This document shows positions 7,385 to 27,133 of a stretch of DNA of 36,160 bases, piece by piece; the first letter of the stretch is position 1, and each line of letters starts with the position of its first letter. Made by a program: the position numbers and the translations under genes. The stretch spans positions 1 through 36,160 of IMG/VR virus record IMGVR_UViG_3300031565_000172; one strand, 5' to 3'. The notes under the pieces were generated by a model. The model made no database searches. It was not told where the DNA came from and was given only the letters and a program-made list of their open reading frames with translations. Source of the stretch: a virus.

Positions 7385-7941
7385 GTTATGACTACACTGA
7401 ATACCTCGCTAATTTCAAAAAGGGTTACATTGCCAATATGGATGCTAATGGCTTTTTGGTCAAGTATCGTCAAGCCATTTATGATGAAGTAGAAGACTAT
7501 CTGGAAGCCAACCAACCCCTGCCCAGAAGCATCTTTGATGCTCTGCCGAAATCAGAACGGCGCAAGATGGGGCGGACAATATGGCACGCTGGATGGCAGT
7601 CAGGTAGTGATGCCGCCAAATCTATTCGCGCAATCAAGCGTAAGTACAATGCTCTGGCACTTGCTGATGCCGAGGCTGAACGCAAAGCAGCAGGCTGGAC
7701 GGGGCACCGGCACATGACCGCACCCACGGGTCAAAAGATTAACCGTAACGGGATGACAATGGGCCAGTATGCTGGAGCCAATGACTATGAAGGCGGTAGT
7801 ACCCGTACCGATCCTTTTAGCAAAGAAGAGGTTCACAACCTGTTGTTGGGACTTGATGTTCGTATGACGGAACTTGTCGAGCAGATTGAAGACCTTAATG
7901 AAGACCTGACTGGTCGGATCGAAGTATTGGAAACAAAGTAA
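7381..7941 (+). CDS. Hypothetical protein (186 aa)
   Basis: A soluble protein of unknown function, coupled to the o-spanin gene by an ATGA overlap. The N-terminal 100 residues are helical and charged (SERRKMGRTIWHAGWQSG), the middle is glycine-rich, and the end (about residues 150-186) has regular leucines in VRMTELVEQIEDLNEDL, suggesting a coiled coil. No membrane span or enzyme motif is seen. It sits between the lysis and head genes and could be structural or accessory. Confidence 0.7.
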   Translation: MSYDYTEYLANFKKGYIANMDANGFLVKYRQAIYDEVEDYLEANQPLPRSIFDALPKSERRKMGRTIWHAGWQSGSDAAKSIRAIKRKYNALALADAEAERKAAGWTGHRHMTAPTGQKINRNGMTMGQYAGANDYEGGSTRTDPFSKEEVHNLLLGLDVRMTELVEQIEDLNEDLTGRIEVLETK

Positions 7942-7950
7942 AGCCCGACC

Positions 7951-8481
7951 ATGTCTCAGACTTCATTAGATTTCTTCACCTCCGCCGCACAGGCCGCGCC
8001 CGGTACGGCGGTATGGGCAAACCAGACAGATGGAGACACCGTTGCGCTGGGTGACGTATTGGTTAACAACAATGCGATCACGGTTTCTACGCCTGCCAGT
8101 TCTTCTTCCCAGACGGTCACCCTGACGGGTCCAAAGGCTGGTGCGGAATTGCCGCTGACAGCCCCCGGCCTGACCATCACCAACATATACTTGGAAGCGT
8201 ATCCGTGGATCGCGGCGTTAGGAACAAAGCCCCTTTATTTCTCCATTCAGGGAGGCGCGGCAGTGGCCATGTCAATAAACAGTAAACCACAGGTCCAGTA
8301 TCTGTCCGGAAACCCCGCTTACTGGGGGATTACCAATGTCCAAGCCCTGAGTTTTGCATCCGGCGGAACGGCGACCATGCAAGACGTAAACCCTGATACA
8401 AGTGGTCGTATTGTCGGTTGCGCGTATGTAAAGATACGTTTTGACTACCGGGCATCAACCCCGATGCCGGGGCTGTTTTAA
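7951..8481 (+). CDS. Hypothetical beta-rich protein, possible virion component (176 aa)
   Basis: Rich in Thr, Ser, Ala, Gly and Val, with alternating hydrophobic strands and no long helix, the composition of phage decoration or tail proteins. The family is not recognised. No strong ribosome site precedes ATG 7951, so coupling to the upstream gene (9 bases away) may help. Its location just before the head module supports a structural role, but this is inference. Confidence 0.65.
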   Translation: MSQTSLDFFTSAAQAAPGTAVWANQTDGDTVALGDVLVNNNAITVSTPASSSSQTVTLTGPKAGAELPLTAPGLTITNIYLEAYPWIAALGTKPLYFSIQGGAAVAMSINSKPQVQYLSGNPAYWGITNVQALSFASGGTATMQDVNPDTSGRIVGCAYVKIRFDYRASTPMPGLF

Positions 8482-10645: not shown

Positions 10646-10673
10646 TCCCTGAACAGGGAGTAGCCTTTCTTTT
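10637..10673 (+). terminator. Rho-independent terminator before the capsid genes
   Basis: AAAGGTTA (10637-10644) pairs with TAGCCTTT (10661-10668); inside, after one mismatch, TCCCT (10646-10650) pairs with AGGGA (10655-10659) around a GAAC loop. This 13-bp interrupted stem ends in TTTCTTTT (10666-10673). It overlaps the stop codon of the 150-residue protein. It may partly separate scaffold from capsid expression. Confidence 0.65.
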
Positions 10674-10696
10674 AAACACAAAATGGAGACATTAAC

Positions 10697-11323
10697 ATGT
10701 CATCAGTAGCTACTCCCTTCGGTGCAAGGCCCGTGGGCACGATGAGTGCCAGCGGTTCTTTTACCGGGAAAGTGAACCATATGCCGATTGCAACGACTTA
10801 CGGGACTGCCATTTTCTTTGGCGATTTCGTTAAGCTGGCTGTAGACGGTACGATACAAAAGGATACGGGAACAGCAACTCTCGGCCTTTCTCTTATCGGT
10901 ATTTTCATGGGTTGTGCTTTCACAGACCCGACTTCCGGTCAGAAAACCTTCAGTCAGTATTGGCCAGCAGCAAATGCTGCCACCGATGCTGTTGCCTACG
11001 TTATGGACGATCCGTTTGTGGTCTTCCAGATGCAGGCTACTGGGGCGATGACCCAAGCATGGTTGCATGGCAACGCAGCGGTTACCCAGACAGCAGGAAC
11101 GACTGCTCTTGGGATCAGCAGAAATGCGTTGACTCAAAGCAGCACAACTGCGACTCAGACTCTGCCTATCCGGATCGTCGGCTTTGTTGACGGCCCTGAC
11201 AGCGCAGTTGGCGATGACTATACCGATGTACTTTGTCGGTTCAATGGTTATCACCTGAATCTTTCCTACTTCATAGATGCCAGCGGTAATGAAAATTACG
11301 GCCTTGGCCTCGCAACGTCATAA
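10697..11323 (+). CDS. Structural protein next to the capsid gene, head decoration candidate (208 aa)
   Basis: A beta-rich, Thr/Ala/Gly-rich protein starting ATPFGARPVGTM, with conserved-looking GTAIFFGDFVKLAVDGTI and VAYVMDDPFVVFQMQ. Proteins of this type stand directly before the capsid gene in several marine phage groups, as I recall, and are probably virion proteins, perhaps head decoration. ATG 10697 has GGAG upstream. It follows the terminator at 10637-10673, so it may need read-through or its own promoter; I see no clear promoter in the 24 bases between. Confidence 0.7.
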   Translation: MSSVATPFGARPVGTMSASGSFTGKVNHMPIATTYGTAIFFGDFVKLAVDGTIQKDTGTATLGLSLIGIFMGCAFTDPTSGQKTFSQYWPAANAATDAVAYVMDDPFVVFQMQATGAMTQAWLHGNAAVTQTAGTTALGISRNALTQSSTTATQTLPIRIVGFVDGPDSAVGDDYTDVLCRFNGYHLNLSYFIDASGNENYGLGLATS

Positions 11324-13257: not shown

Positions 13258-13938
13258 ATGGCTTCAGGTTTAAAGAAATATGATATTGATCCAGCCGATC
13301 TGGATGACAACGGTATCGCTGAATCGCAGGCTGTGGTGGTTCTGACAACGCCCAATCTGGTATTGAATGGCGCACTTGCAGACGCAGGTACGGCGCTCCA
13401 GTTTGATATTGGCGATACCTATTCCGATGGCATTGGCGGTGTCAGGCTGTTATTTGACAGTGCCGGTGATATCAATACCAATGTTTTTACCATCACGGGC
13501 AAGGATCAGGACGGCAATTCGGTCACTGAAACGGTCACGGGCGTTACCACTATCCCAGTATCCACGGTGAAGTATTATTCACAGGTCACGGCGATCACGG
13601 CGAGTATTGATACCACCAGCAATGTCTGGGTTGGCACGGTTACGGGTGAACTGGTATCCCCGACTGTGCCGGTTAACCGTTATTCAGATGACGGGGCTGC
13701 GGTGGCTGTATCTGGACTGAGCGGAACCTGCCAGTATGATCTGGAACAAACCTTCGATGATCTGCGTCTGGGTTCGGTTTCGGCCAACTGGTTTGTCGTT
13801 TCAGCAGCAGGCACCGATGCCAGCACCGACATCGCCACTCAGGCGGCGGCTGGCGCAACTGGTGTCCGCCTGAAGATGGACTCCTACACCAATGCGGCGG
13901 AACTGCAGTTTCACGTCTCTTATAACCCGATTCGATAG
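13258..13938 (+). CDS. Probable virion structural protein (226 aa)
   Basis: A beta-rich protein with many Thr, Val, Asp and Gly residues, two domain-like halves (a domain with FTITGKDQDGNSVTETVTG and a C-terminal one with LEQTFDDLRLGSVS), and no membrane span. Ribosome site AGGAGA precedes ATG 13258. No family is recognised; the first half resembles immunoglobulin-like or jelly-roll strands found in head-tail proteins. A decoration or tail role is inferred from composition and position. Confidence 0.65.
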   Translation: MASGLKKYDIDPADLDDNGIAESQAVVVLTTPNLVLNGALADAGTALQFDIGDTYSDGIGGVRLLFDSAGDINTNVFTITGKDQDGNSVTETVTGVTTIPVSTVKYYSQVTAITASIDTTSNVWVGTVTGELVSPTVPVNRYSDDGAAVAVSGLSGTCQYDLEQTFDDLRLGSVSANWFVVSAAGTDASTDIATQAAAGATGVRLKMDSYTNAAELQFHVSYNPIR

Positions 13939-14521: not shown

Positions 14522-14766
14522 TGCCCAAGGCACGTAACTACGCCCACGAATACGCTTCGTACCATGCCAAGCCGGAGCAGCGTAAACGACGCTCCGAGCG
14601 TAATATGGCACGGCGTAAGATGGTGGAGGCCGGATTGGCCAGCAAGGGTGATGGCAGAGATGTTCATCACAAGAATCGTAATACTTCTGATAAGAGTTCC
14701 AAGAATTTAACAGTTATCAGCCAGAAGAAGAATCGTGGCTGGCGTAAGAACAAGCGAGGACAGTAG
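14521..14766 (+). CDS. HNH-like small basic protein (81 aa)
   Basis: The start overlaps the previous stop (TGATG). The N-terminal half is a very basic helix (RKRRSERNMARRKM). Residues 47-65 hold RDVHHKN and then SKNLTV, the pattern of the first part of an HNH nuclease fold (His pair at 49-50, Asn62). The final His of the HNH motif is not visible, so activity is doubtful or metal binding differs. Related small proteins recur in marine phages. DNA binding is likely from the charge. Confidence 0.6.
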   Translation: MPKARNYAHEYASYHAKPEQRKRRSERNMARRKMVEAGLASKGDGRDVHHKNRNTSDKSSKNLTVISQKKNRGWRKNKRGQ

Positions 14767-14767
14767 C

Positions 14768-15541
14768 ATGCCAATTAATTCACGTATAGACCCCCGATTA
14801 ATGAATGACGGAGCGGCTGGCAATCAGTGGGAACCCCCCATGACGACAGGGCCGATAAGCTATCCGTCCCCGTGGACACCTCCGTCTCCGATGCCCCCAC
14901 AGGGGCGGCCTCCGATGCCGCCACAGTCGAATCGTCCTCCTTGGGCCGGTAGTCCCGGCGGTCGTTTTGGTGAAATGCCTCGTCCTGACGGGCCTCCGGG
15001 CAGTCCGTTCCAGCCATCACCCTTGCAGACAGGTGGACTTGATCCAATGCCGCGTCCGATACCGGGGCCGATGCCGCCTTCACCGATGCCAACCAACCCC
15101 GACTGGTACTACCCAACGGGTGGAGCTGGTGAAGAGTTTCGGCCAACGGGTGGGGGTATGAGTATGCCTGTACCGCCACCAACACCCACGATTCAGCCAT
15201 CACCGTATCAGCCTTCACCAACGGGTGGAGCTGGTGAAGAGTTTCGGCCAACGGGTGGACATTTTGATAATCAAGTTCCGGTTGGCGGCTTCCCGACTCA
15301 GACATCACCTCATAGGCAGGCTCCGATGCCACGCCCAGAAGAGATTGGACAGGCACTCCAGCAACATTACGGTAGCAAGGGTGGTAATGCTTCACCCCCA
15401 CCTGCCCAATTCAGTGGACAGAGTCCGACTGCCGGTGGCAAAGGGGGTCAGCAGGCTCCGCCTTCCGGTGGTAAGGGTGGTAATCAAGGAAGTCAGGACT
15501 ACACCCCGTTGAGAAGCCGTAACGGTTACCGGGGAGGCTGA
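14768..15541 (+). CDS. Pro/Gly-rich low-complexity protein with GGKGG tail (257 aa)
   Basis: Unusually rich in Pro, Gly, Met and Ser, with no predicted globular core. TGGAGEEFRPTGG occurs twice, encoded by an exact 41-base repeat (15113-15153 and 15218-15258). The C-terminal part carries SKGGN, GGKGGQ and GGKGGN, resembling the end of the following protein. GAGGA at 14756-14760 precedes ATG 14768. Probably a disordered virion or assembly protein; function is unknown. Third-frame open stretches in the repeat area are composition artefacts. Confidence 0.65.
   Translation: MPINSRIDPRLMNDGAAGNQWEPPMTTGPISYPSPWTPPSPMPPQGRPPMPPQSNRPPWAGSPGGRFGEMPRPDGPPGSPFQPSPLQTGGLDPMPRPIPGPMPPSPMPTNPDWYYPTGGAGEEFRPTGGGMSMPVPPPTPTIQPSPYQPSPTGGAGEEFRPTGGHFDNQVPVGGFPTQTSPHRQAPMPRPEEIGQALQQHYGSKGGNASPPPAQFSGQSPTAGGKGGQQAPPSGGKGGNQGSQDYTPLRSRNGYRGG
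15113..15258 (+). repeat. Exact 41-base direct repeat pair inside the Pro/Gly-rich gene
   Basis: Copies at 15113-15153 and 15218-15258 are identical over 41 bases and 105 bases apart (35 codons, so in frame). Each encodes the TGGAGEEFRPTGG unit. Perfect identity at silent positions points to recent duplication. Confidence 0.85.
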
Positions 15542-15542
15542 C

Positions 15543-16820
15543 GTGGCAGGAACTGATACAACAGCATCTCTTCAACCCGCAGAACTCAATCCAGACTGGA
15601 ATTTTGTGGACGGGATGGGTTATTACAACCCGAAGACCGGAGACTGGTTTGACACCAGCGGTAATCCGATGGCGAATCCGCTCCAGACGCGAAAGGATGA
15701 GACGGGTAGCGCAACAGACGGTGAATGGGATGAAGGTACTCAACTGGGCTGGGTTAATCCATTAAATGGTGTCTGGACTGCCAATCCGCCCGGAGTAGAG
15801 GGTGGAGTTCCAAATCCTGCCCCTAATGGTGGGACTGTATATGGAAATGGTAATCCTGTTACTCCTGACTGGTTCGACTCAGACTCAGGTATGTGGTACA
15901 ACCCGGAAACGGGCCAATTAGAGCTGAAGTCAGTTAATTATAATCCAATCACTGAAGAATCAGAACTTGCCGGGAAAAATATCTGGGATATCCAAAAGGA
16001 GCAAGAAGCGCAGAAGAAACAGGATGCGGATGCAACATGGCTGGATGAACAAACCCGTTTGAATGATCGTGAACGGCAGTATTATCTGGATCACCCTGAA
16101 GAAAGGGTTGACCCTATGGGTCAAAACCGCTCGACCCTGCAGGATCAACAGGCCGAGTATGAGCGGCAGGTAAAACTCTCTGAGCGGCAGGCCTATAATC
16201 CGGCCCAAGGGCTGGGGGCAAGCCCTTATTCCGGATGGTGGAAGATGCCGGAAGGGTTTAATTACGGTGTGGATGAGAATCCTATACTCAACTCTCCTTA
16301 CGGGAAGATACAGTCGGGCACCCCTGCAGCAGTAAAGGCTTATGGAATGTATCTCCGGCATGCGCCACAGTCTGAATGGGACTCCTATATAGCTAATAAC
16401 CCTGATGCGCTGCAGCCTAGAACACAGGCAGCATCACCACCAGCGGTTGCTGCACCACCATCACCAGCGGCTCCTGCTGCTACGAACTGGTGGGACAACT
16501 TTGACCCCACGAACACCCCGTATGGCGATCTGACGCAGATTGATGTAGGTCAGGTTGGGCAAGGCAAGGGCGGCACCGGACAAACGTCACCGGCAGGCAA
16601 GGGCGGCACCAGCCAACCTCCCCAGATGGGGTACTACGGACAGCATGCTGCGGATGAAGAGGGGCCGCTGGCTTCTCTTGAGGAGATGAACGCTCCGCCC
16701 GCTGGCGGATATGGCGGCAAAGGTGGGTCAGGAACATATCAGCAGCCCACTGGGCAGTATGGCGGTAAAGGTGGTAACACGTCAGGTAACTATCCCGGCG
16801 GAAAAGGTGGATACAGTTAA
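15543..16820 (+). CDS. Modular protein with WYNPxTG motifs and GKGG-rich tail (425 aa)
   Basis: The GTG start follows the previous stop by one base, with GAGG just upstream. The N-terminal third repeats an aromatic motif three times: GYYNPKTGDW (residues 26-35), GWVNPLNGVW (69-78) and MWYNPETGQL (117-126). A charged helical middle follows (residues 140-220), then an Ala/Pro linker, and finally five KGG units (GKGGTG, GKGGTS, GGKGGSG, GGKGGNT, GGKGGYS). The tail matches that of the preceding protein, so the two probably act together. No enzyme motif. A virion or assembly role is inferred from position before the connector genes. Confidence 0.65.
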   Translation: MAGTDTTASLQPAELNPDWNFVDGMGYYNPKTGDWFDTSGNPMANPLQTRKDETGSATDGEWDEGTQLGWVNPLNGVWTANPPGVEGGVPNPAPNGGTVYGNGNPVTPDWFDSDSGMWYNPETGQLELKSVNYNPITEESELAGKNIWDIQKEQEAQKKQDADATWLDEQTRLNDRERQYYLDHPEERVDPMGQNRSTLQDQQAEYERQVKLSERQAYNPAQGLGASPYSGWWKMPEGFNYGVDENPILNSPYGKIQSGTPAAVKAYGMYLRHAPQSEWDSYIANNPDALQPRTQAASPPAVAAPPSPAAPAATNWWDNFDPTNTPYGDLTQIDVGQVGQGKGGTGQTSPAGKGGTSQPPQMGYYGQHAADEEGPLASLEEMNAPPAGGYGGKGGSGTYQQPTGQYGGKGGNTSGNYPGGKGGYS

Positions 16821-17871: not shown

Positions 17872-18485
17872 TGGCGCTCAATTACACACAACTCACACAG
17901 GCTTTGCAGGACTATATCGAGACCGACGAAGACACTTTCGTTGACCAGATACCGATTATTGTCCAGCAGGCCGAAGACCGCATCCTGAAGGAAGTCCAGC
18001 ATCCGGTTTTCCGCAAGAACGTGACCGGCAGCACCACCGGTAACGACCAGTACCTGAGTATCCCGGCTGATTTTCTGGCCCCGTATTCACTGGCGGTGAT
18101 TGACAGCGGTTACCAGTTCCTGATCTTCAAGGACGTGCATTTCATTCGTGCTGCCTATCCGCTGGTCGCTGATACGGGTGTACCGAAATATTACGGCATC
18201 TTTGATGATGAGTTCTTCATTCTGGCCCCGACTCCGGCCACCGGTTACAACGCGGAATTGCATTACTTTTACCGGCCCGAGTCGATTGTCACTGCAGGCA
18301 CCAGTTGGCTTGGTACCAATGCCGAAGCCTGTCTGTTGTATGGATGTCTGGTAGAGAGTGATAACTTTGTGAAGGGCGATCCGGATATGATGCAGCGTTA
18401 TCGCACCGACTACACCGAGGCGCTGGGCAAGTTGAAGTTGCTGGCGGAAGGCTATAACCGTACCGACAGTTACAGGGCAGGCTGA
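17871..18485 (+). CDS. Phage adaptor protein (SU10 adaptor-like)
   Basis: A 204-residue protein starting YTQLTQALQDYIETD, with VDQIPIIVQQAEDRILKEV, a pattern of phage adaptor proteins (SU10 adaptor type) that form a ring below the portal in podoviruses. A strand-rich insertion follows (residues 55-135) and a C-terminal helix ends in YRTDYTEALGKLKLLAEGYNR. It overlaps both neighbours (TGATG at each end). It would link the portal to the nozzle protein. Confidence 0.75.
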   Translation: MALNYTQLTQALQDYIETDEDTFVDQIPIIVQQAEDRILKEVQHPVFRKNVTGSTTGNDQYLSIPADFLAPYSLAVIDSGYQFLIFKDVHFIRAAYPLVADTGVPKYYGIFDDEFFILAPTPATGYNAELHYFYRPESIVTAGTSWLGTNAEACLLYGCLVESDNFVKGDPDMMQRYRTDYTEALGKLKLLAEGYNRTDSYRAG

Positions 18486-18943
18486 TGGCATTTACCGGAA
18501 ACACCATTTGTGACAGTTACCGGCGTGAGCTTATGGAAGCTGCGCATGATCACCGCACTCATGTGTTCAAACTGGCGCTGTACACGTCAGCCGCCACCCT
18601 GAATGCTGCAACCACAGATTACACCACCGCTGGCGAGGTCAGTGGAACCGGTTATACGGCGGGTGGATATACCCTGACTTCGGTTGTTCCTGCCTTGTCA
18701 GGGTCAGGCAAGGTGGCTTTTGCGGGTTTTGCCGACCTGATTATCGAGTTTGCAACCTTTGTTACAAGGGGCGCATTGATTTACAACACGACGGCTTGGG
18801 GCGGGACTGGCACCACCAATGCAGTCATGGTGCTTGATTTTGGTTTGGACCGGACATCGTCAGCCATTGGGCCGGATTACCGGGACTTTGTGATCCGTAT
18901 GCCTACCGCAGATGCCATCAACGCCATCCTGCGCATCCAATAA
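18485..18943 (+). CDS. Structural protein, paralogue A (152 aa)
   Basis: A beta-type protein starting MAFTGNTICDSYRRELMEAAHD, with FKLALYTSAATLNAATTDYT, TRGALIYN and VMVLDFG. The protein at 19262-19702 shares this framework (MAFT, CDxxKRE/RRE, MALY, GALIYNN, VLDFG), so the two are diverged duplicates. I recall similar proteins in marine phage structural regions; function is unknown. The start overlaps the adaptor stop (TGATG). Confidence 0.7.
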   Translation: MAFTGNTICDSYRRELMEAAHDHRTHVFKLALYTSAATLNAATTDYTTAGEVSGTGYTAGGYTLTSVVPALSGSGKVAFAGFADLIIEFATFVTRGALIYNTTAWGGTGTTNAVMVLDFGLDRTSSAIGPDYRDFVIRMPTADAINAILRIQ

Positions 18944-18956
18944 GAGAGGTATTTTT

Positions 18957-19262
18957 GTGATTCAAACAAATGGCTCGACCGTCCAGTTAGGTACGGTCAC
19001 AGTAACTACAACCAGCGGACGTGGACTACCTATTGAACACTGGGCAGATCGATGCTTGGAGCGAATTATTCACGTAGCGGACAACAGTAACTCGATCCTC
19101 AAGGATCAGGCTATTGCCTTTAAAGACGACATTCGCCAAGTGCTGATTCATTACATCGCACAGGCAATCAAAAGTGACAGAACTACCCTGTACAACCTGC
19201 TGAGTCGGCAAGGTGAAAGGGAAATGGCGGCACTACTTTTAACTTTGACAGGAGACAGATAA
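18957..19262 (+). CDS. Conserved small protein between the paralogues (101 aa)
   Basis: GTG 18957 with GAGAGGT upstream. A short strand-rich N-terminus (TNGSTVQLGTVTVTTTSG) leads to a helical domain PIEHWADRCLERIIHVAD, IRQVLIHYIAQAIKSDRTTLYNLL. The helical part is a recurring phage family in my memory, next to fibre or tail genes, with no assigned function. The stop overlaps the next start (TAATG). It splits two paralogues. Confidence 0.65.
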   Translation: MIQTNGSTVQLGTVTVTTTSGRGLPIEHWADRCLERIIHVADNSNSILKDQAIAFKDDIRQVLIHYIAQAIKSDRTTLYNLLSRQGEREMAALLLTLTGDR

Positions 19263-19702
19263 TGGCTTTTACAGTTACCGCAATGTGCGATACATTCAAG
19301 CGTGAGATTTTGGCAGCAGAGCATGACTTCACCAATGGTACGGGACACACGTTCACCATGGCTTTGTACGACAATTCAGCAACCCTGACCGCCACTACAG
19401 CGGTGTATACGGCAACTGGTGAATTGGCCGATGCCACGGGCAACTATTCCCGCCCCGGCAAGACCTTGGTTAATGTCACCCCAACCCTGAATGGTACTCA
19501 GGGGATTACCGACTTTGATGATGCGGTCTGGTCCACGGCGACGTTCAGTGCGTATGGCGCATTGATTTACAACAACACCCACGCAACCGATGCAGCAGTG
19601 GCTGTACTTGATTTCGGTGGGGTCAAGACCGCGACAGCGGGTGATTTTACCGTCCAGTTCCCCGTAGCAGCAACCGGCACTGCGATCATCAGGATCGCGT
19701 AA
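19262..19702 (+). CDS. Structural protein, paralogue B (146 aa)
   Basis: Same framework as the 152-residue protein at 18485: MAFTVTAMCDTFKREILAAEHD, FTMALYDNSATLTATTAVYT, YGALIYNN, VAVLDFGG, and a closing AIIRIA. Beta-rich with many Thr and Ala. Two different but related subunits may occupy equivalent positions in the virion, or one may have a new role. It leads by overlap into the tailspike gene. Confidence 0.7.
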   Translation: MAFTVTAMCDTFKREILAAEHDFTNGTGHTFTMALYDNSATLTATTAVYTATGELADATGNYSRPGKTLVNVTPTLNGTQGITDFDDAVWSTATFSAYGALIYNNTHATDAAVAVLDFGGVKTATAGDFTVQFPVAATGTAIIRIA

Positions 19703-21402
19703 TGGCTACCACCATCACAGTAACTCCCGTTGATGTAGGAACCACGCCCGGTGACAACACGGGCGATTCTGCGCGGGTGGCATTTCAGGCGGTCAACGCC
19801 AACGAGGCAAACTTCAAAGCGGGGATCGAGGCGATCCGTGAACCGCTGACGGCCAACCGCACCTACTACGTCAGGACGGACGGTAATGATTCCACCAACG
19901 ACGGCCTGACCGACAGCGCGGGTGGTGCGTTCCTGACCATTCAGAAAGCAGTAGATGTGACCTTAGACACGCTTGACCAGCGCGGTTATGTGGTAACTGT
20001 TAATGTAGCCGATGGAACCTACACGGCAGGGATTAACGTGCAGCGGTCTTTGCCTAAGGAAATGTACATAACAGGAAATACTACGACTCCTGCCAACTGC
20101 ATCATTTCTACAACAAGCGCCAACTGCGTTACCTATGGTAACGGTGGCTCTATGGGTGGTCACCCATTGATCTTGTCTGGATTTGAGTTTCGCACAACAA
20201 CATCTGGGTTTTGCATCCAAAACTCCGGAGGCCATATCTCATTGAATACCGCGATCAGGTTTGGCGCATGTGCGTTATACCATATCTACAATGCTGCGGA
20301 AGGCTCGGTAACGGCACTCAATAGTAATTATGAAATTACTGGCGCTGCCGATGAGCATATGTTGTGTGCAAGGGGAAACATCGTCAGTAATGCTGGAACC
20401 TGCACTATAACGGGAAGTCCAGCAATTGGTTTTTTTGCCAGAGCGACTGGCAAGGGTTACATCTATAGCGGAACTACCTACACGGGTGTGGTTACCGGAC
20501 AGCGTTATGCCTGTTGGGAAAACGGCACAATTGAAACAACGGGTGGAGCAAACCATTTTCCCGGCACTGTTGCTGGAAATGTCATAGATCAGGGCATGTA
20601 CAACGGTATCAGCAACTACCGTGAACCGCTGACGGCTAACCGTACCTACTACGTCCGTACCGATGGAGTGGATACCAATACCGGACTGGTTAATTCAGCT
20701 GGCGGTGCGTTCCTGACTATCCAGAGAGCGGTGGATGTGGTGTGTACTACCATTGATGGCAGAGGCTATACCGTGACCATTCAGGTCGGTGCAGGGACAT
20801 ACACGGCAGGAATAGTGCTGTATCCCACTAATGGTCTAGCTGACACTAATGACTTTATTATTAAGGGCGACACCACTACGCCTAGCAACTGCGTTATTTC
20901 AACTTCTGCGGATTGTTTTACCGCTTTCGGTGCAAACATTTATGGAAAAATTGAAGGATTTAAGTTTGTTTCTTCAGCAGGCAGCGGATTATCTGTTGGA
21001 AACGGGGCTTTGGTGCATGTCGGCGCGGTTGAGTTTGGGGCTTGCTCTTATGCACACATAGACCTATATGATGCGTCATTGTCCATGACCGCAAACTACA
21101 GTATTACAGGTGCTGCAACCTACCACATTAATGCAGATGGAACCTCTGGCTATTACTGCATAGGCAGAACGGTCACGATGTCTGGAACCTTGGCGTTCAC
21201 CACCTTCATAGTTATGTATGACGGTGCTTACGCTTTTTGTGGAACAACGACTTACACCGGGGGTACGATTACGGGTCAAAGGTATGCCGCAGAGGTTGGT
21301 GGTATCATAAGCGGTACAGGTGGGTCATCCACCTTCTTCCCCGGTAATGCGGCAGGTGGTGGAACCGACTACAACACAATTACCGCAGGGTTGTATTTAT
21401 GA
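19702..21402 (+). CDS. Tailspike-like protein with two tandem beta-helix-type modules (566 aa)
   Basis: Residues 1-45 (GDNTGDSARVAFQAVNANEANF) match the virion-anchoring segment of many phage tailspikes. Then come two homologous modules, residues 46-306 and 307-566 (261 and 260 aa), each opening with REPLTANRTYYVRTDG and containing AGGAFLTIQ(K/R)AVD, G-YTAGI and ITGQRYA-type strands. The ISTT/FTI pattern and Gly/Thr/Ser turns suggest parallel beta-helix, pectate-lyase-like folds for binding or cutting a host glycan. No catalytic residues are identified. The start overlaps the previous stop; the end overlaps the next gene (ATGA). Confidence 0.8.
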   Translation: MATTITVTPVDVGTTPGDNTGDSARVAFQAVNANEANFKAGIEAIREPLTANRTYYVRTDGNDSTNDGLTDSAGGAFLTIQKAVDVTLDTLDQRGYVVTVNVADGTYTAGINVQRSLPKEMYITGNTTTPANCIISTTSANCVTYGNGGSMGGHPLILSGFEFRTTTSGFCIQNSGGHISLNTAIRFGACALYHIYNAAEGSVTALNSNYEITGAADEHMLCARGNIVSNAGTCTITGSPAIGFFARATGKGYIYSGTTYTGVVTGQRYACWENGTIETTGGANHFPGTVAGNVIDQGMYNGISNYREPLTANRTYYVRTDGVDTNTGLVNSAGGAFLTIQRAVDVVCTTIDGRGYTVTIQVGAGTYTAGIVLYPTNGLADTNDFIIKGDTTTPSNCVISTSADCFTAFGANIYGKIEGFKFVSSAGSGLSVGNGALVHVGAVEFGACSYAHIDLYDASLSMTANYSITGAATYHINADGTSGYYCIGRTVTMSGTLAFTTFIVMYDGAYAFCGTTTYTGGTITGQRYAAEVGGIISGTGGSSTFFPGNAAGGGTDYNTITAGLYL

Positions 21403-21989
21403 AAAAACGTAGCACAGGATTATCCAATCATTACTGGGTCGTTGCCGGATCAACTACTGAAGTCTATTCCAGTGCCGCTGGCGACTATGTTCCGGTCACT
21501 GATCCGACTTATGTTGCATGGCTGGACAATGGAACCTATGTCCCGCTGCCGGTACCGACACAGGCCGAGTGGGAAGCCGGACAGGCACTGGCTGATTACC
21601 TGCTGCCCACCGATCCTCCGCGTGATCCGAACGTCGAGTTCACCTTTGAAGATTGGCTGCTGACACAGGATGCCACGGACTCCTATGCCCGCTGGCAGGA
21701 AGTCAATCAGCGTAAGGAAGATGCCAATTATCGGGAATGGCAGGATGGGGCCAACGCGCCAAGTCCGGTGGATAGCGAGATTGAACTGGGCAGAATCATG
21801 GCCCAGCTTGACCTGACCCCAATACCCGCTGCTATTCTGGATGCGTTCAAGGATAGTCTGTCTGACAAGTTACCTGTAAGGCTGCTGTTTGAAGTGTTCT
21901 ACAGCCACGAAAACCGTATCCGTACACTGGAGGGATTGGGCAACATCACCAAGGCGCAGTTCAAGACCGCACTCAAGAATTTGCTGTAA
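21399..21989 (+). CDS. Tail fibre-associated protein (196 aa)
   Basis: An N-terminal part with HYWVVAGSTTEVYSSAAGDYV, then TYVAWLDNGTYVPLP and a helical charged C-terminus with LLFEVFYSHENRIRTLEG. The start is like fibre-attached or fibre-assembly proteins that contact spike C-termini. It is coupled to the spike gene by ATGA. A fibre assembly or accessory role is likely by position; it could also be a virion protein. Confidence 0.65.
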   Translation: MKKRSTGLSNHYWVVAGSTTEVYSSAAGDYVPVTDPTYVAWLDNGTYVPLPVPTQAEWEAGQALADYLLPTDPPRDPNVEFTFEDWLLTQDATDSYARWQEVNQRKEDANYREWQDGANAPSPVDSEIELGRIMAQLDLTPIPAAILDAFKDSLSDKLPVRLLFEVFYSHENRIRTLEGLGNITKAQFKTALKNLL

Positions 21990-21992
21990 GTC

Positions 21993-22046
21993 ATGGCTAC
22001 CTGCCGTTTAGCCCCGCTGGTGCGCCAGATGAATCCGAGCAGGTAG
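21993..22046 (+). CDS. Possible 17-codon leader ORF before the repeat fibre
   Basis: ATG at 21993, three bases after the previous stop, opens a 17-codon frame (MATCRLAPLVRQMNPSR) whose TAG stop ends one base before the ATG of the next gene. Its start region is the left arm and its stop region the right arm of a 9-bp hairpin that covers the next gene's ribosome site. Ribosomes translating it would open that hairpin. The ribosome site for the leader itself is weak, so reinitiation is needed. The peptide may have no function of its own. Confidence 0.35.
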   Translation: MATCRLAPLVRQMNPSR

Positions 22047-22047
22047 C
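21996..22047 (+). promoter_or_regulatory. Hairpin burying the ribosome site of the repeat fibre gene
   Basis: GCTACCTGC (21996-22004) pairs perfectly with GCAGGTAGC (22039-22047), the bases just before ATG 22048 and including its only Shine-Dalgarno-like sequence, AGG. The 34-base loop carries a further CTGG-TGCG-CCAG stem (22017-22028). This would hold translation low unless the upstream ribosome enters. Confidence 0.5.
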
Positions 22048-24432
22048 ATGGCAACAGAAACCAAATATATTGATGGCGTAGTCTATTCCCTTACGGGATT
22101 GACGGGCGCGTACACCAACATTGATGACGACCCCGGTTCAGCCGACTCGCTGTGGGTTACAACCACTGCCAGTAACAGCATATTAAGGGCCAGCTTTCCG
22201 ACCCCGACCGATCTTCTGACACCCGGCGCGGGGCTGCAAACCTTCCGCTTGTGGGTACGCAAGGATGCTACCGGCGGCAGCGACCCGGCCATCGTGGTTT
22301 ACTTGCGCGAAACCGGGGGTGGCTCTAATCTTGCGACGGTCATCGCCTCGACCACCATCACAGTTGGGCCGACTACCGGCACTGCCGGTCAGTTAATCAG
22401 CGGTACATGGAACGCTTCGTTGCTTAGCGCGATCAGTGGTACTGGGGTCGAGATTTATTGCGTCTCAACCAAGGCCGGTGGCGGCCCGAATCTGCGCAAT
22501 GTAGAATTTGGCGCAATCGCTTGGGATGTCACTTACACCCCTTCGGTAGCGGTCACGGTTACACCAACAGGTGTCAGCGCGGCTTCGGCGGTAGGAACCC
22601 CTGCGGTTGGTGTGTTCAAGACCGTCACACCAACCGGGGTAGCGGCTACAGGATCGGTAGGCAGTACTACAGAATCAGGTAAAGCGGTAGTTACTCCTGC
22701 TGGCGTGTCAGCAACAGCCGCTGTCGGTACAGCCATTGCGCAGGTGGGCTGGACGGCAGACGCAGACCACTTCACCGTCGATGATGCCAGCTATCACACG
22801 GCGGACGGATGGCATGTAGACAACCCCGGTGCAGCAGGGGTAACGGTTACGCCTGCGGGGGTATCCGCGACCAGTGCAGTCGGCACGGTTACCGTGTCCG
22901 GCAAGGCGGTGGTTGTACCGGACGGAATATCGGCCACCGGCTCTATTGGTGATGTCACCGTTTCTTTACCCGCTGTTGTAACGGTTTCTGGCATTGCTTC
23001 AGCGGCTTCCGTTGGAACAGCAACAATTACCGGTAAAGCAGTTGTTCAGCCTACCGGAGTCTCTGCAGCATCAGCGGTTGGTACGGTGACGGTTGTTGGA
23101 AAAGCAATCGTTCAGCCAGCCGGAGTCTCTGCGGTTTCTGAAGTTGGCACACCAACAGTTCTTGCTGCCAGTGATGTCGCTGTTACCGGCGTTAGCGCAT
23201 CCTCAGAAGTTGGTGCTGTCACGGTAGAAGCGAAAGCGGTCGTGCAGCCCACAGGGGTCAGTGCAGCCTCTGCTGTCGGTACAGCCACGGTTGCAGTACA
23301 TCGAGACGTTGCGGTCACGGGTGTTTCGGCGGCATCAGCTGTTGGTACGACCACGGTTACCGGCAAAGCGGTGGTACAGCCTGTTGGAGTCACTGCCTCC
23401 GGTCTGGCGGGGAATGTATCGGTAGCCACTTCCGGAGCGGTCACGGTCGGAGTTAGCGGCGTTTCTGCGACCAGCGCCGTAGGCGCACCAACGGTTACCG
23501 GAATCGGTAACGTCACGGTGACCGGTGTAGCCGCCACTGGATCAGTTGGTAATGTCGCTGTTGCTGAAGCCAAGACGGTTACCGTTACTGGTGTAGAAGC
23601 GACCGGATCGGTCGGCAGCGTAACTGTAGATGCCGCTGCCAACATGTCAGTATCTGGCGTGGCGGCCACATCAGCCGTTGGAAGTGCCACCGAAACCGGT
23701 GATGCAAACATCCTTCCAGCCGGTGTATCTGCAACAGCTTCAGTCGGTGCCCCAGTCCTTGTAGGTCTGGGCAATGTAACGACCAGTGGCGTTGCCGCCA
23801 CAGGATCGGTTGGTTCAGTTACGGTAGTTGAAGGGGTCAGTGTCAGTTTCTCTGTTACTGGCGTTGCCGCCACAGGATCGGTTGGTTCAGTCACCGTAAT
23901 TGAGGCTGTCGGGGCTAATGTTTCGGTTACTGGTGTATCTGCCACAGGGGCTGTTGGTACAGCAACAGTCTCTGCCAAAGCGAACGTACTCGCCGACAGC
24001 TTACTGGCTAATGCGGCTGTCGGAACACCTTCGATACTCACGTCTGTAGTCGTTACGATTACGGGCGTTGCGGCAACGGGTGCGGTCGGTGATGTCAATG
24101 TTCTTGCCGGATTTGAAGTTGTAAGTGTCACGGGCGTTGGCGCGACCGGCTATGTGGGTATTATTGACCGGTATCCGCTGTGCATAGACCAGCCGTCACA
24201 GCAGGCGGCATGGATGGAGCTGACCCCATCTCAAGTTGCATCATGGGCTGATCTGGCCACCCTTGGCTGGACCGCCGATGCCAATCATTTCACCGTCGAT
24301 GATTCGGTCAATCATACGGCAGATGGCTGGCATGCAGAAGGCCAAAATACTGGCAACTCAAGCATAGAGCAGTGGACAGAAATTACCCCAACAGAAAAGG
24401 TTGCGTGGCGTGAAGGAACGTCCTGCAGTTAG
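22048..24432 (+). CDS. Fibre-like protein with 23 tandem 22-residue repeats (794 aa)
   Basis: Residues 1-171 are a Gly/Thr/Ser-rich N-terminal domain with TFRLWVRKDATGG and VEFGAIAWDVTY. Residues 172-706 hold 23 repeats of about 22 residues, consensus xVxGVsATgxVGxvTV plus a six-residue variable tail. Repeat 3 contains an inserted module GWTADADHFTVDD...HTADGWH (234-257) that recurs at 740-763 in the C-terminal 88 residues, which also hold WMELTPSQVASW and WTEITPTEKVAW. Such regular strands suggest a long rod or beta-solenoid fibre; no enzyme motif is seen. Position among spike and fibre genes supports a receptor-contact or host-surface role. Confidence 0.75.
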   Translation: MATETKYIDGVVYSLTGLTGAYTNIDDDPGSADSLWVTTTASNSILRASFPTPTDLLTPGAGLQTFRLWVRKDATGGSDPAIVVYLRETGGGSNLATVIASTTITVGPTTGTAGQLISGTWNASLLSAISGTGVEIYCVSTKAGGGPNLRNVEFGAIAWDVTYTPSVAVTVTPTGVSAASAVGTPAVGVFKTVTPTGVAATGSVGSTTESGKAVVTPAGVSATAAVGTAIAQVGWTADADHFTVDDASYHTADGWHVDNPGAAGVTVTPAGVSATSAVGTVTVSGKAVVVPDGISATGSIGDVTVSLPAVVTVSGIASAASVGTATITGKAVVQPTGVSAASAVGTVTVVGKAIVQPAGVSAVSEVGTPTVLAASDVAVTGVSASSEVGAVTVEAKAVVQPTGVSAASAVGTATVAVHRDVAVTGVSAASAVGTTTVTGKAVVQPVGVTASGLAGNVSVATSGAVTVGVSGVSATSAVGAPTVTGIGNVTVTGVAATGSVGNVAVAEAKTVTVTGVEATGSVGSVTVDAAANMSVSGVAATSAVGSATETGDANILPAGVSATASVGAPVLVGLGNVTTSGVAATGSVGSVTVVEGVSVSFSVTGVAATGSVGSVTVIEAVGANVSVTGVSATGAVGTATVSAKANVLADSLLANAAVGTPSILTSVVVTITGVAATGAVGDVNVLAGFEVVSVTGVGATGYVGIIDRYPLCIDQPSQQAAWMELTPSQVASWADLATLGWTADANHFTVDDSVNHTADGWHAEGQNTGNSSIEQWTEITPTEKVAWREGTSCS
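22561..24165 (+). repeat. Tandem coding repeats, 23 units of mainly 66 bases
   Basis: Each unit is 66 bases (some 69 to 72; unit 3 is 156 because of an inserted module). Units 18 and 19 are identical over 32 bases (23788-23819 and 23860-23891), while others differ at many silent sites, showing repeated rounds of duplication and drift. Confidence 0.85.
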
Positions 24433-24450
24433 GATCAATGAGGAAACATC

Positions 24451-25269
24451 ATGTCAAGTGATTACACAGTAAGTCTCGGTTTTGAAAAGCCCGGTTCCGG
24501 TGAACAGGCCGGGGCATGGGGCGACACGCTCAATCTTAATTTTGATAAATTGGATCAAGCAATCAGCGGATATGCTTCCGTTGCCCTGTCCGGAAATGGA
24601 ACTACCGGTGCGCCAAACGAAGTCAAGGTGAATAATACGACCATCCAAACGGAGCTTTCGGACGGGCGCAACATGTACATTGAGTTCACCGATGGTGGTG
24701 GTCTCTCGGGTGACGTTTATGTGCGGTTCACACCAGAGACCAGTAAAAAGATGGGTTACATCAAAAACAGTACAGGCTATGCCCTGTATGTCTTTCAAGG
24801 AACCTATGATGCGGCTCGCGATTTCGTAATTGCTGATGGCGATACATACTTGCTGCGCTTCAGCGGTGAAGGTGCGCCCAGCTCTACCGTAACATCCGTT
24901 GTAACGGCGACCGAGACCGTCACCAGCAGCCTGAAGCTGGCGGGTGAACTGGTCCATGCTCTGAACAACTCGGTGGCCATCGATGTGGGCAGTTACAACC
25001 GGCACCATGTCGCCTTCAATGGCAGCATCACGCTGACTTTCAGCAACGTACCTTCAGTCGCTGATGCTGATCTGGGCGTTACTTACCATAAGGAAGGCCA
25101 GATTGTCCTGTGGAACGGAGCAACCCCCGGTACGATAACCATCTCCGGTCTGGGCAGTTACCGGTCGGTGGGTTCATACACCACCGCAGCCAGTGTCACA
25201 CAGGTGCTGACCTACATCATCCAGCGTATTTCCGGCACCAACTACACCACGGTGATCTGGAGCAACTAA
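24451..25269 (+). CDS. Tail fibre or receptor-binding protein (272 aa)
   Basis: The N-terminus, SLGFEKPGSGEQAGAWGDTLN followed by NFDKLDQAISG, is a familiar phage fibre virion-attachment motif with the GAWGDTLNxNF pattern. The rest is beta-rich with repeated Gly and Thr (YVRFTPETSKKMGYI, GSITLTFSNVPSV) and ends in a strand-rich domain. It likely binds a host receptor or attaches the larger fibre. ATG 24451 follows GAGGAA 7 bases upstream. Confidence 0.75.
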   Translation: MSSDYTVSLGFEKPGSGEQAGAWGDTLNLNFDKLDQAISGYASVALSGNGTTGAPNEVKVNNTTIQTELSDGRNMYIEFTDGGGLSGDVYVRFTPETSKKMGYIKNSTGYALYVFQGTYDAARDFVIADGDTYLLRFSGEGAPSSTVTSVVTATETVTSSLKLAGELVHALNNSVAIDVGSYNRHHVAFNGSITLTFSNVPSVADADLGVTYHKEGQIVLWNGATPGTITISGLGSYRSVGSYTTAASVTQVLTYIIQRISGTNYTTVIWSN

Positions 25270-25270
25270 C

Positions 25271-27133
25271 GTGCCTCTGATCAAAACCAACTTCCTTCCC
25301 GGCTTCAGCAAGGAAGGAACCCAGTTCTCTACCGGGGCCAAGTGGTGGGACGGGGACAAGATCAGGTTCCGTAAAGGTAAGCCGGAAAAGATCGGTGGCT
25401 GGGTCAAGTATGCTGCTGGCTCGTTACTGGGCGTTCCAAGAACAATTCTGGACTGGGGTACGGCAGCCTCGCTGAAGTATCTGGGGATTGGAACCAGCCT
25501 GAAATTTTACGTGGAAACGGGTGGTGAATATTACGATGTCACGCCCCTGCGGTTCACGACAGGAATAGGCGATGTTACGTTTGCGGCATCCAATGGTTTC
25601 TCTACCATCACCGTAACCGATACCACCCACGGTGCGCTGCTGGGCGACTATGTCAGCTTTTCTGATGCGGAAGGTTTGGGTGGCTTGATTACCGCTGAAG
25701 TGCTGAATCATACTGAAGCTGGCTGGGTTGGTTACCAGATATCCAATATTGTGGATTCCAACAACTACGAGTTCATTGCGCTGGATGCGGCGGGTGCCAC
25801 GGTTACTGCTAATGGCGATGATTCGCTCACTGGCGGCACTATAGCGGTTGGTTATTACCAGCTCAGTGTAGGTACAAACACGTATGTCGGTTCGGTAGGT
25901 TACGGAGCGGGAACCTATGGCGAAATGCCATGGAATGGTTCAGTCAATGTTAACTTTGGGGGCCAGTTGCGGCTCTGGAGTCAGGACGCATTTGCTGATG
26001 ACCTGATCATCAATCCGCGTGGCGGAGGTGTTTACTTCTGGGATGAAAGCGATGGGGTAACGGTTCGTGCCATTCCGTTAACAGACCTACCAACCGCATC
26101 TGACGCACCGACAGCGGCATTACAGGTTCTGACCTCACCGGTTGATCGACATGTTATTTGTCTGGGCGTAAACCCTTTGGGGGAAGCATCCATTGACCCC
26201 CTGCTGATTCGCTGGTCGGATCAGGAAGATGCGGGTGACTGGTCACCAACAGCCATCAACAGTGCAGGTGGTCAGGTTCTGTCTTCCGGCACCCAGATCA
26301 TCGGTGGAGTCAAGACGCGGCAGGAAATCCTGATCTTTACAGACACTTCGATTCATTCCATGCGCTATGCGGGCGCACCCTACGTGTACCAGTTCGCAGT
26401 GATCGGTGAGAATGTGACGGTGGTTTCACCCGGTGCCGCAGTCAGCGCGGGTGATGCGGTGTTCTTCATGGGTTCTGAAGGGTTCTACGTGTACCAAGGA
26501 TCGGTTACCCGTCTGGTCTGTGATGTGCTGGATCATGTCTTCAACAACATCAACAAAGAACAGTATTACAAGGTTTTTGCGATCAACAATCCGGCCTTTT
26601 CGGAGGTGACTTGGTTTTATCCAGCGGAGACTAATGAAGTGACCCGCTATGTCACCTTCAACTACACCGAATTGATCTGGACGACCGGAACCCTGTCACG
26701 GGGCGCGTGGGCACTGGCACCCAGCCGCAGTTACCCAGTTGCCAGCACCAATAACAGCACGGGTGTGAACTACCTGTATAACCATGAATCCGGTTACGAT
26801 GCAGATGGTGCGGCGATGGGTGAATATCTGGAGTCAGGAACGATTCCGCTGGAAGACGGTAACTCGCTGATGTTTGTCAAACGGTTCCTGCCGGATTTCC
26901 GGATCGAGGGGACCGAGAACAACGCGAACTTCAACATCAGCATCAAGGGCAACATATTCCCGCAACAAGACCTGACCACCAAGGTCACCAAGGTGGTGAC
27001 AGCGAACACCAAGCAGTCACATGTCAGGGTCAGGGCGCGGGAGATTGCGGTACGAATTGAAGGCACTGGAACGGGCTATGGCTGGACCATGGGAGATTTT
27101 CGCTTTGACATGAGAACGGACGGAAGACGATGA
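25271..27133 (+). CDS. Tail nozzle-like protein (620 aa)
   Basis: GTG start right after the previous stop. The N-terminal block FLPGFSKEGTQFSTGAKWWDGDKIRFRKGKPEKIGGW is a recurring marine podovirus structural motif. The rest is strand-rich with repeated Gly/Asp turns, suggesting a beta-propeller; P22 gp10 and T7 gp12, the nozzle proteins, have comparable size, place and fold. Residues DLTTKVTKVVTANTKQSHVRVR near the C-terminus look like a final strand pair. Function is inferred by order after connector and fibre genes. Confidence 0.7.
   Translation: MPLIKTNFLPGFSKEGTQFSTGAKWWDGDKIRFRKGKPEKIGGWVKYAAGSLLGVPRTILDWGTAASLKYLGIGTSLKFYVETGGEYYDVTPLRFTTGIGDVTFAASNGFSTITVTDTTHGALLGDYVSFSDAEGLGGLITAEVLNHTEAGWVGYQISNIVDSNNYEFIALDAAGATVTANGDDSLTGGTIAVGYYQLSVGTNTYVGSVGYGAGTYGEMPWNGSVNVNFGGQLRLWSQDAFADDLIINPRGGGVYFWDESDGVTVRAIPLTDLPTASDAPTAALQVLTSPVDRHVICLGVNPLGEASIDPLLIRWSDQEDAGDWSPTAINSAGGQVLSSGTQIIGGVKTRQEILIFTDTSIHSMRYAGAPYVYQFAVIGENVTVVSPGAAVSAGDAVFFMGSEGFYVYQGSVTRLVCDVLDHVFNNINKEQYYKVFAINNPAFSEVTWFYPAETNEVTRYVTFNYTELIWTTGTLSRGAWALAPSRSYPVASTNNSTGVNYLYNHESGYDADGAAMGEYLESGTIPLEDGNSLMFVKRFLPDFRIEGTENNANFNISIKGNIFPQQDLTTKVTKVVTANTKQSHVRVRAREIAVRIEGTGTGYGWTMGDFRFDMRTDGRR

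Follow-up and report, generated by a model that had tools for sequence, protein, structure and literature searches.

A cis-acting RNA hairpin in a 58-nt intercistronic gap may couple the gene starting at 22048 to the translation of the gene upstream, in the 36160-base virus record that was analysed over its full length (hereafter the window) and that carries genes for a terminase, a portal and a podovirus-type virion structural ('stabilization') protein. This is the best explanation found for the arrangement, and it is put forward tentatively, at somewhat less than even odds. In such a scheme, the upstream gene and the 22048 gene would share one transcript, the hairpin would make the 22048 gene less able to start translation by itself, and this gene would depend on ribosomes coming from the upstream gene. 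Ribosomes terminating at 21987-21989 would melt the 5' arm of the hairpin, or restart 3 nt further on at a short leader frame and read it to 22046, or do both, and would subsequently start at 22048; the leader peptide itself would play no role.

If real, this would be a compact natural case of a phage keeping a structural protein proportional to its neighbour, with a micro-frame serving solely as a ribosome bridge. The opening of a ribosome-site hairpin by upstream translation is a long-known principle and the gain would be modest in this respect. That the device would tune the amount of fibre, as proposed in the initial annotation of this DNA, is pure conjecture.

Layout of the gap and predicted fold

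The gap lies between a 196-aa gene and a 794-aa gene, the second and third members of a three-gene cassette, and the relevant features are the following:

19702 to 21402, plus strand: 566-aa gene resembling tail fibre protein genes by tblastn, first gene of the cassette
21399 to 21989, plus strand: upstream gene, 196 aa, directly behind the fibre-like gene and ending with TAA at 21987-21989
21993 to 22046, plus strand: leader frame MATCRLAPLVRQMNPSR, 17 codons from ATG to TAG, same frame as the upstream gene
21996 to 22004, plus strand: 5' arm of the stem, GCTACCTGC, from sequence, pairing and predicted fold
22039 to 22047, plus strand: 3' arm of the stem, GCAGGTAGC, with the SD-like GCAGG, from sequence, pairing and predicted fold
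22048 to 24432, plus strand: gene of a repeat-rich 794-aa protein, described from repeats and position, with no family match

As read from the sequence, the leader ATG lies 3 bases beyond the upstream TAA and, the spacing being of three bases, the leader is in the phase of the upstream gene. Its 17 sense codons are closed by TAG (22044-22046), which is followed by a single C and then by the downstream ATG; the tiny frame described in the initial annotation as starting 3 bases past one stop and ending 1 base before the next start is thus exact to the base. Just as exact is the perfect stem reported there between the first and last codons of the leader, the two arms forming 9 Watson-Crick pairs from 7 nt past the TAA onwards. 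In the predicted fold, which reaches -22.9 kcal/mol over a 61-nt stretch, the stem is prolonged by CAUG/CAUG pairing around one bulged G and both start codons are therefore paired as well. The region preceding the 22048 gene (SD energy of -5.7 kcal/mol over 20 bases) has GCAGG as its sole SD-like bases and, these being located within the 3' arm, the only ribosome-binding bases of this gene are indeed covered, as had been claimed.

The scan for promoters and terminators is consistent with a single transcript. Neither promoter-like nor terminator-like sites were picked up in the plus strand from 21402 to 22048, nor was any terminator-like site at 21990-22047, and over 19500-25500 the promoter-like sites numbered 4 vs. 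4.3 in shuffles, i.e. without excess.

Modelled ribosome access and a possible path through the leader

The unpaired probabilities of the SD and ATG of the 22048 gene were estimated with a folding model in which the bases covered by a ribosome are forced to be single-stranded. When ribosome-free, the downstream site is predicted to be closed (SD 0.17, ATG 0.02). With a ribosome terminating on the upstream gene, the model gives 0.49 for the SD and 0.32 for the ATG if the edge of the ribosome is placed at +15, and 0.17 and 0.42, respectively, if it is placed at +12, the SD value at the latter edge arguing against coupling. For a ribosome at the leader start, the values are 0.62 and 0.33, and for a mid-leader ribosome 0.67 and 0.02. 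According to this modelling, the position of the stem would allow upstream translation to open the site, whether the leader is used or not. The idea that translation of the leader opens the stem, as initially annotated, survives in part: in the model, the site is free with a leader-terminating ribosome (1.00 for both SD and ATG, by construction as those bases are covered). The leader is perhaps dispensable, since the stem may be partly open as soon as a ribosome ends at the upstream TAA.

Regarding the translation of the leader itself, which was also part of the original proposal, no support was obtained. Its own SD energy is -0.2 kcal/mol, i.e. almost no SD, and its codon log-odds of -0.68 fall beneath those of 95% of 8925 same-length in-frame windows, a level reached by 23% of 7702 off-frame open windows. 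Both SD and codon use are unlike those of a translated gene, which counts against coupling. The leader does not look like coding sequence; a mere ribosome path would need no gene-like codons, and initiation through reinitiation would not require an SD.

The spacings are of relevance here. According to PMC10666635, coupling by reinitiation requires overlaps or very short gaps, about 20 nt being enough to almost abolish it. Because a bare 58-nt gap exceeds that range while the 3-nt and 1-nt spacings fit it, the leader is favoured as a bridge, if coupling exists. A fully self-contained relay, in which ribosomes terminating upstream reinitiate on a meaningless 17-codon frame, melt its own stem and reach 22048, is unlikely. 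If it were true, a 58-nt gap otherwise abolishing coupling would gate the 22048 gene to the output of its neighbour.

Coupling via a hairpin over the downstream ribosome site occurs in the RNA phage MS2, from coat to replicase and from coat to lysis, as well as in the L35-L20 operon. By analogy, the downstream ribosome site would here be held in a stem and released by upstream translation; unlike in these systems, the stem is local to the 58-nt gap and its fold is a predicted one. Hairpin-gated coupling, if real, is a known kind of device. The arrangement is also akin to termination-reinitiation at overlapping or close genes (PMC6728339 and PMC10666635), with 3 nt from the upstream gene to the leader and 1 nt from the leader to the next gene, but the bridge is here a 17-codon leader and the direct 58-nt gap is outside the reported range. 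Besides, a synthetic short 'nonsense' upstream frame is described as raising translation in PMC13255528. Like that genetic part, the leader is a short meaningless frame ending beside the target start, with the SD within the frame; that part, however, is engineered with a strong SD, whereas the SD in the window is of moderate strength and sequestered in the fold.

Coupling weighed against chance, insulation and coding remnants

When the gap is taken singly, the stem is beyond chance, dinucleotide shuffling of the 61-nt gap having produced a stem of at least 9 bp in 41 cases out of 20000, whereas over the whole window the excess over chance is only weak, with 13 nine-mer stem hits vs. 7.4 on average in shuffles, which spanned 1-14. 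The latter count favours the close rival of hairpin-gated coupling, ranked just after it and quite possible in its own right, namely that one of the few relatively long gaps in the genome happens to hold both an inverted repeat and a short reading frame, neither of them selected. The leader start would then be a by-product of a stem over the palindrome CATG; indeed, leader and stem are not independent because CATG is its own reverse complement and a stem over the downstream CATG yields an ATG in the opposite arm. The same direction is indicated by the probability of about 0.17 of meeting such an arm over the SD zone of one or more of 40 starts, by the closed frame of at least 10 codons that 18% of random 58-nt gaps contain, and by the codon use of the leader, which is not gene-like. 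Folding of 61 nt gives a z-score of -2.1 and folding of 111 nt one of -2.2 (overall -2.1 to -2.7 across calculations), and by this score 22048 ranks only third, after 17871 and 7951, among the 40 starts compared, these and the 41 starts used below being a subset of mechanical ORFs of our own choosing. Opening the 22048 start costs 13.2 kcal/mol, 9 of the 41 starts being costlier to open, and its region has the fourth lowest mean unpaired probability of the 41. This low unpaired probability and the fold z-scores count in favour of coupling. That stems of this length are near the window background and that the opening energy is not extreme both speak against coupling. What chance accounts for less readily is the conjunction, as the stem and the abutting leader are jointly rarer than each alone (0.2% and 0.7% per gap, an ATG frame abutting both neighbours being present in 0.68% of random 58-nt gaps), and the stem sits exactly on the ribosome site. 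A comparable stem elsewhere in the window (10655-10718, described below) was retained in 0 of 12 relatives, which favours chance and weakens the coupling reading, such stems appearing to come and go.

An opposite function for a similar anatomy has also to be considered, the evidence being compatible with coupling and with this alternative. According to PMC7518266, stable structures just past stop codons are enriched at gaps >25 nt and cut reinitiation in a synthetic operon; a hairpin of this kind would block drifting ribosomes and insulate the next gene instead of coupling it. By position and predicted fold, the anatomy in the window is of this type, with a stable fold directly past the stop, the stem setting in 7 nt after the TAA, and a gap of 58 nt, over 25 nt. 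However, unlike the structures of PMC7518266, this one takes in the ribosome site of the next gene, and pure insulation would then entail poor translation there; moreover, the spacing of the leader would invite reinitiation. Such a ribosome termination structure is an improbable reading. Still less probable is a coding remnant, where the gap would formerly have been protein-coding in the third frame (21989-22081, SHGYLPFSPAGAPDESEQVAWQQKPNILMA) or would bear the scar of a recombination at the border of a fibre gene. The codon use of this frame, unlike that of the leader, is typical of the genes of the phage, ranking at the 42nd percentile among in-frame windows, with a score attained by just 2.0% of the 7702 off-frame open windows, which is a weak hint of a coding remnant. 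Against this, the 30-residue peptide of the third frame had no tblastn match in phage records with E up to 10, and no ATG, GTG or TTG start was found in that frame ahead of the gap. Entry by a -1 frameshift was rejected, the upstream codons AAG AAT TTG CTG TAA containing no canonical slippery heptamer (X XXY YYZ).

The comparable stem is a perfect 10-bp pairing between AGGGAGTAGC (10655-10664) and GCTACTCCCT (10709-10718), which spans the 10697 start of a 208-aa gene with a fold z-score of -1.7. A relative of this gene was present in 12 of the 13 records searched, and the pairing, defined as a perfect helix of at least 9 from the leader to the first codons, was seen in none of them by eye from predicted structures. 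Among these predictions, one relative (L109) has a 10-pair stem formed from the ten bases immediately before the ATG, three others (L115, L117, and L120) have in common a 7-pair hairpin, TTTTAGAGGAATTCTAAAA, around the SD about 20 bases before the start, and some of the remaining ones exhibit shorter stems near the start. Predicted structure at starts is thus common in this phage group, a given long stem being not necessarily kept. Elsewhere in the window, the GTG start at 15543 (region 15523-15560) combines a strong SD (-10.5 kcal/mol) with an accessibility of 0.12, the lowest of the 41 starts, and an opening cost of 20.4 kcal/mol.

Gene content and relatives of the cassette

The protein of the 566-aa gene (19702) gave tblastn matches in 8 phage records, the best one being to Acidovorax phage AP1 (37.3% over 93%), and it resembles tail fibre proteins from Acidovorax phages and others. 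In AP1, the gene behind the fibre gene carries a tail fibre assembly annotation, and its position corresponds to that of 21399-21989 in the window; the similarity of the upstream protein to this positional analogue is not convincing, and family scans with this 196-aa protein came back empty. In four Acidovorax phages harbouring a relative of the 19702 gene, the next two genes are 1-2 nt apart and have no leader; the similarity of the second gene to the one in the window was unconvincing in the two phages compared and the parallel is thus positional only. As for the 794-aa protein, no match was found in PHROG, Pfam or NCBIfam, nor by tblastn in phages; from its repeats and position, it is likely to be a fibre or a decoration protein of the virion.

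In the collections searched, the junction was encountered in two other contigs only, namely IMGVR_UViG_3300031539_001027, where 5 of 9652 positions differ from the window, and IMGVR_UViG_3300031566_000724, where 30 of 14963 differ. No difference falls within 21990-22047 in either contig; both are near-identical fragments of the same phage and are uninformative on constraint, so that these copies, identical across the gap, bring no comparative support to the coupling reading. Exact searches for the start of the gap, and for the stem plus ATG with a loop of 25-50, returned the same two contigs only. Viral contigs were also scanned with protein patterns taken from the upstream protein, from the downstream protein in full and from its first 166 residues, and from the 566-aa fibre gene; beyond these two contigs, this yielded only matches in other contexts. 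Two sets of candidates were set aside as junction relatives, i.e. L005 and L006, where similarity is confined to the repeat part, and L024 and L025, where the match is a domain within another large protein and consequently has no orthologous start. No match was obtained with blastn of 21399-24432 against phages, nor with tblastn of the upstream or downstream protein against phages, and two scans of genome contigs revealed no relative. The upstream protein was absent from the records of all 20 relatives searched, and the downstream protein gave a single marginal match in these same records (E 0.0025, 32% over 56 residues). In plasmids, one short match (E 0.6) was taken as chance. Structural relatives reached via the 25271 and 647 genes have the backbone in common and this cassette was found in none of them; therefore, these backbone relatives provide no test of the finding. 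Across the whole window, Rfam returned 0 matches at the gathering threshold, and, within the titles and abstract starts of the open-library literature, no paper describing a leader of this kind ahead of a fibre gene was found.

Some observations concern the surroundings of the cassette. In L015, genes 19262 and 24451 have counterparts that adjoin directly (3-143 and 143-1087), and the three-gene fibre cassette (19702-24432) therefore looks inserted at this boundary. In L011 (3916-4347) and other relatives, one and the same ORF is matched by both the gene at 18485-18943 and that at 19262-19702, which suggests a tandem duplication over 18485-19702 in the window. The differences between the window and IMGVR_UViG_3300031566_000724 are clustered, 16 of the 30 occurring in 82 bases (13395-13476) and 8 in 428 bases (7860-8287), a pattern resembling the exchange of small patches. 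Within the ORF at 14735-15541, a 41-base direct repeat occurs in two identical copies (15113-15153 and 15218-15258).
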